NCBI GenBank assembly: GCA_038735125.1
Contig: JAVYNU010000009.1
Coordinates: 1 to 64,000 of the forward strand
Source of the DNA: Ignisphaera sp.
Lineage (GTDB): Archaea > Thermoproteota > Thermoprotei_A > Sulfolobales > Ignisphaeraceae
DNA: 64,000 nucleotides
Reading direction: 5' to 3'
Shown piece by piece: positions 29,760-35,182 of the stretch. The first letter of the stretch is position 1. Each line of letters begins with the position of its first letter. Position numbers and translations under genes: made by a program. The notes beneath the pieces are model-generated. The model saw only the letters and a program-made list of their open reading frames with translations, did no database searches and was not told the DNA's origin.

Positions 29760-30125
29760 CTATATTTCCATAAAGCTATACCTTATTCTTATATATTCAG
29801 AAAGCTTTTTGTCATTAGTCAAGGCATTAATTATTTTTGGATCATCGATCATCGTTATAAGATAATCTTCAATTCCATGTGCATGCTGCAAAGAACCTCT
29901 AATCCCTCTCTCTACTTGCACATATCCCAAGTTACTCAACTCTTTAACAGCCTTACTTACATCATCATAGCTAGGCACCTCCTCTTTTAGTGTTGAATTC
30001 ATGCCCTCTATCTCCATATGGATCTCAGTTAACCATAGCCTTCTGTATAGCCTCAGAACCCTCAGCACATCTCCCATAATTTTTTCAATACCTTCTCTTG
30101 CGTTCAAAATAGCATTTATATCCAA
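29760..30125 (-). CDS. Small winged-helix-like protein of unknown function
   Basis: Protein of 121 residues, mainly helical. The middle part (SYDDVSKAVKELSNLGYVQVERG) reads like the recognition helix and wing of a winged-helix domain, preceded by two helices (ILNAREGIEKIMGDVLRVLRLYRRLWLTEI). The C-terminus (DYLITMIDDPKIINALTND) may mediate dimerisation. A DNA-binding role is inferred only. It converges on alaS with a gap of 44 bases and borders the gene-free region. Confidence 0.55.
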   Translation of the reverse strand: MDINAILNAREGIEKIMGDVLRVLRLYRRLWLTEIHMEIEGMNSTLKEEVPSYDDVSKAVKELSNLGYVQVERGIRGSLQHAHGIEDYLITMIDDPKIINALTNDKKLSEYIRIRYSFMEI

Positions 30126-30612: not shown

Positions 30613-30638
30613 TAAAATTTATTAACCAAATTAAGCAT

Positions 30639-30662
30639 TTTTATGCAAAGATTTGCATAAAA
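30639..30662 (+). promoter_or_regulatory. Perfect 24-bp palindrome, candidate operator
   Basis: The arms TTTTATGCAAA and TTTGCATAAAA are exact reverse complements, 11 bases each, around the two-base centre GA. The site lies between the putative TATA box and the GTG start at 30666. A dimeric regulator bound there would block transcription; as RNA it would form a hairpin over the ribosome binding region. Confidence 0.7.
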
Positions 30663-30665
30663 TAG

Positions 30666-31229
30666 GTGGTTTATATATCACAAGCTCAAATAGAATCGAC
30701 TAAACAGCTAGTTGGAGATGAAGGTGAAGTGAGGAGGTCAGCAGTTTGGGAGGAGGCTTTAATACAAGAGTTTATTTACGCTATTGGTCACCTTAATCAC
30801 GTTGAGCAACATCTACTAGAATCAGATTCTTATGTTGGAGCACCAATTTTTGCTGACCTTGTTGATTCTTTCAGGGAGCAGAGAAAGGTTGTCGGCCAAG
30901 TGCTATTCCTGATAGAGAAGCTTGAGAGTATAAAAGGTGGTAGCACAGAGATTAGATCATCATGGGAAAGCATTTGGTGTGCATTAAAGCACTCTACTAC
31001 AGCACTCATCCATATAGACGAATGTATAGAGAAGTTATTGAAGAAGATGAAAGATAATGGAAATCCTGATCTAGTCGAATGTGTAAAGTCATTGTTGATG
31101 GTTCGAGAAAATGTGCTTAAGGGAATAATTAAAATGATTGAGAGAAGCAAATCAGCAGCCGATGTTCTAACTAAGGCTAGTGCGCGGTGTAGGGATGATC
31201 TATGTTTAGAAGAGGTTGAAAAGCATTGA
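30666..31229 (+). CDS. Unknown helical-bundle protein behind the palindrome
   Basis: Protein of 187 residues predicted to be almost wholly helical, probably a four-helix bundle. Possible metal-binding residues lie on the helices: H42, H45, E47 and H49 in helix 1 (GHLNHVEQHLLES), C105, H109, H116, E119 and C120 in helix 3, E138 and C139 in helix 4, C175 and C180 near the end. The start is GTG 30666, only four bases after the palindrome. A GGTGG overlaps the start, so the exact initiation site is uncertain. The stop overlaps the next gene (TTGA). No family recognised. It could be a metal-binding or sensor protein; that is a guess from residue pattern. Confidence 0.7.
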   Translation: MVYISQAQIESTKQLVGDEGEVRRSAVWEEALIQEFIYAIGHLNHVEQHLLESDSYVGAPIFADLVDSFREQRKVVGQVLFLIEKLESIKGGSTEIRSSWESIWCALKHSTTALIHIDECIEKLLKKMKDNGNPDLVECVKSLLMVRENVLKGIIKMIERSKSAADVLTKASARCRDDLCLEEVEKH

Positions 31230-31504
31230 AGTTATCCGGATATGTATTGCTAAAAATATCTCAGGATGCACCAAGAAATGTCAGGATAAGAATTTATAAA
31301 GTGATGAATGGAACTGTAGTCACTATAAAAGGGAAGAGGTATAAGTCCAAGGGATTGGTAGAACTAATGGATGGAATAAAGATAAATGGTTCTCTATATG
31401 TATTTCCATTGGAGAACATAACCAAGTTATTAAGAGAGCTATCTGGAAAGGGGTTAGACACTTTTGTAGAAATAATTAATATGTGTACATGTAAATGCGA
31501 TTAA
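31226..31504 (+). CDS. Unknown small protein with a C-terminal CxCxC tail
   Basis: Protein of 92 residues starting at TTG 31226, which overlaps the stop of the preceding gene by four bases, so translation is probably coupled. The body is beta-rich and basic (VRIRIYKVMNGTVVTIKGKRYKSKGLVELMDGI), and the last residues read INMCTCKCD, giving three closely spaced cysteines at the extreme C-terminus. No signal peptide or membrane segment. A metal- or cluster-binding tail is possible. No named family recognised. Confidence 0.7.
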   Translation: MKLSGYVLLKISQDAPRNVRIRIYKVMNGTVVTIKGKRYKSKGLVELMDGIKINGSLYVFPLENITKLLRELSGKGLDTFVEIINMCTCKCD

Positions 31505-33772: not shown

Positions 33773-33832
33773 TCTTTCATTATACAACAGCTTTTATTTC
33801 TAAATAAAGTTGTATATATATTCGTGACTGGG

Positions 33833-35182
33833 ATGTCAAAAAATGTCGTAATAATAGGAGGCGGTGCTGCAGGAGCATCAGCTGCTTCAAGAGCCAAGAA
33901 GCTTGATCCCTCAGCCAAAGTCATACTCATCGAGGCAACTGATATGATTACACATGGACCATGCGCTATTCCTTACTATGTTGAGGGAATAGTCAAAGAC
34001 AAGAAAATGCTTGTAACATATACTCCAGAGGATTTTGAGCGCGATAGAGGCATAAAGGTTTTAACAAATACTGTTGCAAAGAGTATTGATGTAGATAAAA
34101 AGGTTGTTGCCGTAAAGAGGGATGGCAAAGAATTCACAATTGAATGGGATAAGTTGATCATTGCAACTGGTGCCACACCTATAAAGCCGAGGGTTAATGG
34201 TATTGATCTAAAAAATGTTTATACGATTAGACACCCAGTACAAGCAGATGAGCTGTCTAATGCAATTAGAAAAGCAAATAATATAGTAATTGTTGGTGGA
34301 AGCTATCTAGGGTTAGAAATAGCTGAGGCCGCTCTTTCTCTAGGCAAGAAGACAATGCTCATTGAGAAAGAAGATCAGTTGCTTCCAAAATCTCTAGATA
34401 GGGATGTGGCTGACATTGTTGCAAAAGAGGTTATGTCAAGGGGTCTCGAAATACATCTTTCTGAGCCACTAAAAGAAATTATTGGGAAGGAATTTGCAGA
34501 GGCTGTTGCAACCAGTAAAAACATTTACAAAACTGACCTAGTTATTTTAGCAACGGGTGTTAAACCAAATACAGAACTGGCTGTAAAAAGTGGTATTAAA
34601 ATAGGGGTTACTGGAGCTATAGAAGTAAATGAATACATGGAGACAAACATTGAAGGTGTGTATGCGGCTGGCGATGTGGCTGAGAAAAGACATGCGATAA
34701 CAGGTAAGAAGGTTTGGATACCACTAGCACCATCAGCCAATAAAGAAGGGCAAGTAGCAGGTGCAAATGCAGCTCTTGGAAGGATTTTAAGATTTCCTGG
34801 TGTTGTCGGAACAGCTATAACAAAGTTCTTTGATATGTACATCGCTAGAACAGGGCTAAATGAAGAAGAGGCAAGGGAGCATGGATTCAAAATAGAAAGT
34901 AAGTTGATAAGAGTTAGAACCAAAGCTCATTATTATCCAAAAGGCACATATGCATACATAAAGATGGTTATAGACGTGTCTACTGGAAGAATACTTGGAG
35001 CGCAGATAATTGGGTGGGAGGAATCAGTTGCTGAGTATATCAATGCTGTTGCAATAGCTATTGAAAAAGGAATGACTATAGAAGATCTATTCTTTGCAGA
35101 TATAGGTTATCATCCTGCGGTTGCCCCTGTCTGGCACCCCCTAATAGTTGCAGCAAGAACATTATCTCATGGTCGCTTCTGA
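33833..35182 (+). CDS. CoA-disulfide reductase / NADH oxidase-like flavoprotein
   Basis: FAD- and NAD(P)H-dependent oxidoreductase of the single-cysteine disulfide reductase class. It has the FAD motif VVIIGGGAAGASAASRAKK at the N-terminus, the redox cysteine in HGPCAIPYY (C44 from ATG 33833) and the NAD motif IVIVGGSYLGLEIAEAAL. The second FAD segment is GVYAAGDVAE, and a C-terminal dimerisation domain ends YHPAVAPVWHPL. Homologues reduce CoA disulfide, polysulfide/S0 or O2; thermophilic archaeal forms are linked to sulfur or redox metabolism. GTG 33824 is another possible start; ATG 33833 puts the cysteine at its usual position. Confidence 0.92.
   Translation: MSKNVVIIGGGAAGASAASRAKKLDPSAKVILIEATDMITHGPCAIPYYVEGIVKDKKMLVTYTPEDFERDRGIKVLTNTVAKSIDVDKKVVAVKRDGKEFTIEWDKLIIATGATPIKPRVNGIDLKNVYTIRHPVQADELSNAIRKANNIVIVGGSYLGLEIAEAALSLGKKTMLIEKEDQLLPKSLDRDVADIVAKEVMSRGLEIHLSEPLKEIIGKEFAEAVATSKNIYKTDLVILATGVKPNTELAVKSGIKIGVTGAIEVNEYMETNIEGVYAAGDVAEKRHAITGKKVWIPLAPSANKEGQVAGANAALGRILRFPGVVGTAITKFFDMYIARTGLNEEEAREHGFKIESKLIRVRTKAHYYPKGTYAYIKMVIDVSTGRILGAQIIGWEESVAEYINAVAIAIEKGMTIEDLFFADIGYHPAVAPVWHPLIVAARTLSHGRF

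Follow-up and report, generated by a model that had tools for sequence, protein, structure and literature searches.

Two overlapping genes in a 64,000-nucleotide stretch of DNA from Ignisphaera sp. (the window) form a real and probably self-regulated archaeal unit, in which the second gene would encode a DNA-binding autorepressor with a cysteine tail as its sensor and the first a metal or redox effector. This reading, to which a probability of about 0.6 is given, turns on gene 2, which probably represents a previously undescribed family of archaeal DNA-binding domains; that domain, more than the proposed metal module, is the probable newest component of the pair.

The gene pair and its occurrence

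Gene 1 (30666..31229, + strand, GTG start) encodes a helical protein of 187 aa, and gene 2 (31226..31504, + strand, TTG start) a protein of 92 aa, proposed as an autorepressor from its AlphaFold2 (AF2) model, its co-occurrence with an operator, and its homology to the C-terminal domain of MNT antitoxins. As the sequence-only reading had described, the genes overlap by the four bases TTGA and follow a palindrome, and the 4-bp overlap is repeated in most Ignisphaera loci. Gene 1 is present as a single copy in 11/11 Ignisphaera genomes, ten of which carry the whole cassette. Because gene 1 is found throughout the genus, has 37 invariant columns in an alignment of 18 sequences, and recurs with the same overlap, both ORFs are considered real genes. 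Neither has a significant match in Pfam, NCBIfam, PHROGs, PADLOC, or the PDB sequences, which agrees with the earlier view that the cassette belongs to no assignable family, and no relatives of either gene were found in viral contigs and a plasmid collection. The same reading had called the neighbouring region possibly decayed, a description that is not supported: the 540-bp gap upstream shows no signs of decay, has no repeat elsewhere in the genome, and is merely longer than its counterpart in two relatives (about 180-290 bp). An RNA element in this gap was rejected, as there is no Rfam match. Two genes 3' of the pair, the window encodes a CoA-disulfide reductase family protein (33824-35182).

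Outside Ignisphaera, gene 1 occurs in one copy per genome in S. marinus, T. pendens, and four other Thermofilum, the names S. marinus, S. hellenicus, and T. pendens being those that we assume for the compared genomes. The palindrome precedes the gene 1-gene 2 pair in Ignisphaera, Staphylothermus, and Thermofilum pendens. I. aggregans and the four other Thermofilum have gene 1 but neither gene 2 nor the palindrome. Eight Desulfurococcaceae genomes show the reverse, an operon of gene 2 and a thioredoxin-like gene that is preceded by the palindrome and does not include gene 1. The sequence-only reading had held that separate occurrence of the genes in other genomes would speak against a joint module; the genes do occur apart and are not an obligate pair, but by the distribution their separation is coherent by clade. 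The gene 1 tree divides into a gene 2-bearing and a gene 2-less side with branch support of 100/99. T. pendens groups in this tree with S. marinus and not with the other Thermofilum, which indicates joint transfer of the operator and both genes. Loss is seen as well, the S. hellenicus locus (L047:7807-8000) having kept the operator, with gene 1 decayed and containing stops and gene 2 gone, and this sequence is read as a natural loss of the cassette. In Thermofilum, the gene-1-only loci L043:7744-9161 and L046:5174-6514 adjoin tatC, with a 4-bp overlap in L043, a linkage found at gene-1-only loci only.

The palindrome and the gene 2 domain

The palindrome TTTTATGCAAAGATTTGCATAAAA (30639..30662) has 24 bp with perfect 11-bp arms and a 2-bp spacer, and contains the core TTTATGC-N8-GCATAAA (30640-30661). 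It is the sole palindrome of such quality in the 64 kb, six Markov shuffles having given 0, 0, 0, 2, 0, and 0, and its core has a single match with up to one mismatch in the genome of the window. A candidate TATA box, TTTATTAA (30618..30625, + strand), is recognised by consensus match only, lies with its centre about 19 bp 5' of the palindrome core, and is weaker than the TTATAA boxes of relatives. Across 15 loci, candidate TATA boxes, several of them weak, put the transcription start inside the palindrome or at its edge, a predicted placement that is the position of a repressor site.

The sequence TTATGC-N8-GCATAA, with at most one mismatch, lies upstream of the first gene of the operon at 20/20 stand-alone gene 2 loci from six genera, with nine positions identical throughout, the half-sites nearly invariant, and the spacer drifting. 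Searched as a 14-mer with at most one mismatch, the motif is essentially single-copy per genome, the sites of G329 and G401 differing at the outer base pair and being found with the 12-mer, not with the 14-mer. There are no such 14-mer sites in the gene-1-only genomes G161, G072, G165, and G153, nor in genomes that have only fused gene 2 domains; the decayed S. hellenicus locus is the exception, an operator in a genome without stand-alone gene 2. When the exact 14-mer was searched for in 214 genomes of the order, 17 matches were obtained, 14 of them at stand-alone gene 2 (including five previously unseen loci), one at the decayed S. hellenicus locus, and two unrelated. Extra one-mismatch palindromes in G214, G179, G329, and G321 do not lie at any gene 2-like gene, and these pattern searches gave no sign of a shared regulon among them. 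Beside a divergent gene 1/gene 2 pair, an operator variant, TTATGTCATTTAAGACATAA (L007:3262-3281; TTATGT...ACATAA), carries a symmetric change in both half-sites. The palindrome is most likely the operator of gene 2, to judge from this co-occurrence; it follows gene 2, not gene 1, since it is also present before the operons of gene 2 and the thioredoxin-like gene that lack gene 1.

The AF2 model of gene 2 (pLDDT 90) shows a ferredoxin-like fold with an inserted hairpin and a beta-alpha-beta arrangement. This confident model contains no helix-turn-helix, gene 2 has no Pfam match, and Foldseek comparison of the model with the PDB and BFVD gave nothing at E <= 0.001. Surfaces that could meet DNA are nonetheless apparent from alignment and modelled secondary structure: in helix alpha-1, RNVRIRIYKVMN (31274..31309, + strand), for which a DNA contact is proposed, residues 17, 20, 22, and 25 are Lys or Arg in almost every member, and the inserted hairpin is basic. 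The protein ends in CTCKCD, as noted earlier. Within this terminus, CTCKC (31484..31498, + strand) is the proposed sensor, in which C87 is invariant and the CxCxC pattern is kept in most stand-alone members; conservation is not strict, as G474 and G476, which end in CIFS, have only one Cys in the tail, and the T. pendens protein has C-x3-C. The tail is absent from the forms of the domain fused to MNT.

These fused forms connect gene 2 to antitoxins. Homologues of the gene 2 domain form the C-terminus of MNT antitoxins and of nucleotidyltransferase (NTase) partners (hhalign 99.1%, E 7.9e-19), and a genome-wide search with gene 2 reached E values of 7.7e-8 for G337:C26 and 2e-5 for G369. In two HEPN-MNT operons, L120 in G337 and L202 in G369, which belongs to another order, the domain is part of the MNT protein, and each operon has two TTATGY-N7/8-RCATAA palindromes flanking a TTTAAATA TATA box (L120:4366-4416 and L202:5854-5916); the fused domain is likewise listed, with paired palindromes, for L120 and L100. 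The MNT-fused relatives have a nucleotidyltransferase domain. The wide pattern TTATGY-N7/8-RCATAA has 26 sites in 675 kb, where 1.6 would be expected, and three of the 26 lie away from any operon with a gene 2 domain. Seven loci of this set had been picked by the motif; without these it has 19 sites, one off target. Palindromes with TTATGY half-sites thus stand at the operon promoter of 20/20 stand-alone loci, of L007, and of the two HEPN-MNT loci in which the operon start is covered, and were not found at the NTase-pair loci L116 and L117. The latter (L116:4195-5391 and L117:5170-6350) are unannotated two-gene modules of a nucleotidyltransferase, DUF2204-like in L117, and a protein of about 205 aa in which Cys is conserved and the gene 2 domain lies at the C-terminus. 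By analogy they are possibly AbiE-like, the pairing of a nucleotidyltransferase with a regulator gene recalling AbiEi/AbiEii, of which AbiEi autoregulates; gene 2, in contrast, stands alone, and the likeness to AbiEi is one of architecture only. The distant HEPN-MNT operons L098 (near 2443) and L099 (near 2416), from G194 and G001, have a common, different palindrome, TTGTTAATWATTAACAA, of the form TTGTTAAT(A/T)ATTAACAA, at the HEPN start.

From homology, basic surfaces, and operator co-occurrence we strongly infer DNA binding by gene 2. It is on balance probable that gene 2 is a ferredoxin-like DNA-binding domain without helix-turn-helix that recognises TTATGY half-sites and serves both as a free Cys-tailed redox or metal repressor of one target operon and as the DNA-binding part of some archaeal HEPN-MNT antitoxins. 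In Shewanella, the MNT antitoxin SO_3165 (S. oneidensis SO_3165/SO_3166) represses its own promoter by binding there, in the presence of two palindromes, and does so without a recognised DNA-binding domain (PMC4621449), and a survey of 2009 had suspected a missing DNA-binding component for MNT antitoxins (PMC2701414). With some of these type VII systems gene 2 has the MNT C-terminal domain and promoter palindromes in common; it differs in lacking NTP_transf_2, in having a Cys tail on its 92 aa, and in being partnered by gene 1 or a thioredoxin-like gene instead of HEPN.

The gene 1 protein and its redox context

Among the 37 columns of the gene 1 alignment that are invariant in the 18 sequences are E35, H42, H45, E47, H49, E52, R70, R73, E101, W104, C105, K108, H109, H116, and E119, together with a C-terminal R-C-R-x-D-x-C that includes Cys175 and Cys180. 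In the window this flexible tail of low pLDDT, with the pattern C-x4-C, reads R-C-R-D-D-L-C-L-E (31185..31211, + strand), and the protein ends in RCRDDLCLE followed by EVEKH. The AF2 model is a helical bundle of only moderate confidence (pLDDT 76.5) with predicted helices H26-57, H63-83, H99-131, and H135-163, on which His, Glu, and Cys are placed much as the sequence-only reading had predicted, at positions that prove conserved. The spacing of seven in E35-H42-H49, Y38-H45-E52, and H109-H116-K123 means that these residues could, in the model, face one core. Foldseek comparison with the PDB and BFVD gave nothing at E <= 0.001 and no known metalloprotein fold; the weak matches to HMA, Cas2, and ferritin (E > 0.001) from the Foldseek searches with the two proteins were left out of the evidence. 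Ferritin-like and rubrerythrin proteins are likewise helical bundles, with which the Glu/His stripes of gene 1 at i, i+7 may be compared, but gene 1 has no significant sequence or fold match to them, no canonical ExxH pair was found in it, and it has in addition a conserved W-C-x2-K-H motif and the C-x4-C tail. The conserved residue pattern suggests a metal or redox site. Four remote relatives, on the 31.5-kb replicon of the T. pendens genome and in G351, G236, and G427, retain E35, E47, H49, W104, C105, K108, and H109. The first of these lies at L083:1285-1887, and that of G236 (L126) adjoins a membrane protein resembling one on the T. pendens replicon. Weak matches in G045, G075, G104, and G369 were judged to be chance.

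The neighbourhood of the pair offers a second indication of function. Thioredoxin-like genes, of which there are one to three per genome, adjoin gene 2 in eight genomes and lie within about 1-7 kb of gene 1/2 in 6/11 Ignisphaera, in three arrangements and from two paralogues; in the genome of the window they are on other contigs than the pair. In G329 and G401 the pair is flanked by a CcdA-like membrane protein and a CPHC thioredoxin-fold protein. All of these assignments (thioredoxin-like, CcdA-like, and CPHC) come from motifs and weak PDB matches, Pfam having given no match. A thioredoxin-like CPHC protein (L077:1111-1617) ends in QCLEDICIE, similar to the gene 1 tail RCREDLCLE, a resemblance that may be due to chance. 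The thioredoxin-fold neighbours support a thiol or metal function of the cassette, and a redox or metal role of the pair is moderately supported by residue patterns and gene context.

Proposed regulation and its alternatives

The sequences show the genes, the operator, its conservation and co-occurrence with gene 2, the domain homology, the clade structure, and the co-transfer; from these comparisons we infer gene 2 itself as the binder of the site, repression as the result, what the tail senses, and the chemistry of gene 1. A gene 2 dimer would sit on TTTATGC-N8-GCATAAA, overlapping the predicted transcription start, where it would block RNA polymerase and so repress its own operon. The flexible CxCxC tail would sense thiol redox state or a thiophilic metal, and oxidation or metal at the tail would release gene 2 and lift repression, so that gene 1, or elsewhere the thioredoxin-like protein, would be made. 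The effector would be gene 1, whose helical bundle would hold conserved Glu, His, and Cys in a polar core and which carries a C-terminal C-x4-C tail; it would most likely bind metal or be redox-active, together with thioredoxin-fold proteins dedicated to the task. This regulator and its operator would, in other Desulfurococcaceae, govern the thioredoxin-like gene instead. Counterpoints are that gene 1 persists without gene 2 or the operator in two lineages, and that a separate regulator in the same genomes could be the binder of the site. The nearest working likeness is SurR of the Thermococcales, an archaeal thiol-switch regulator tied to thioredoxin-fold proteins, disulfide reductases, and its own promoter (PMC12162507). 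SurR, however, is a winged-helix protein of the ArsR type whose CxxC is internal and whose GTTn3AAC regulon spans the genome, whereas gene 2 is without helix-turn-helix, has a C-terminal CxCxC tail, and has essentially one site per genome.

The pair might instead be toxin-antitoxin-like, with gene 1 as an all-alpha toxin and gene 2 as an autoregulating antitoxin as in HEPN-MNT. The architecture is alike (an alpha-helical first gene, an overlapping DNA-binding second gene, and a promoter palindrome), the gene 2 domain has its homologue in MNT antitoxins, the cassette is patchily spread, was transferred to T. pendens, and has decayed in S. hellenicus, and remote relatives of gene 1 sit on the small T. 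pendens replicon and short contigs. This is nevertheless an unlikely account, given that gene 1 was rejected as a HEPN protein (hhalign probability 0.2%, E 0.39; no Pfam HEPN match), has no PADLOC match, is single-copy in every Ignisphaera genome, and lacks gene 2 as a partner in I. aggregans and in four Thermofilum, and that gene 2 also partners a thioredoxin-like gene. Doubtful too, and slightly more so, is the metal or redox protein pair of the earlier proposal, in which gene 2 would be a metallochaperone or electron carrier by means of its Cys tail and an unrelated host regulator would bind the palindrome. Both proteins are Cys-tailed, gene 2 has a ferredoxin-like fold, and there are thioredoxin neighbours. 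Yet the operator, practically single-copy, accompanies gene 2 exactly from genus to genus and where genes have been lost, a matching half-site occurs at operons that have the domain as part of an MNT antitoxin, and the winged-helix-like gene beside the pair (29760-30125), rejected as a general regulator, is limited to three alaS-context genomes. A metal or redox module as such stays plausible from the conserved His/Glu/Cys, the Cys tail, and the thioredoxin-fold links, but gene 2 is likelier its autoregulator than a redox partner.

It is highly improbable that gene 2 controls translation by binding the palindrome as an RNA hairpin of the 5' leader. The palindrome lies near the start codon, could form a 7-bp stem, and would meet a ferredoxin-like protein, a fold that often binds RNA. 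The half-sites, however, hardly vary and do not covary, some sites (G337: TTTATGCCACTAGTGGCATAAA) form perfect dyads that leave no loop, and at most loci the predicted transcription start falls inside the palindrome, so that the RNA would not include the left arm.

To our knowledge, archaeal regulators are mostly helix-turn-helix or ribbon-helix-helix proteins. If the autorepressor reading is true, a small domain that lacks a helix-turn-helix and has a practically single-copy operator of almost invariant sequence would recognise DNA in a new way, and would explain how some archaeal MNT antitoxins locate their own promoters. Two hypothetical proteins would thereby become a unit open to testing, in which the operator is defined, the tail is a candidate sensor, and gene 1 is a candidate effector acting through metal or redox chemistry.
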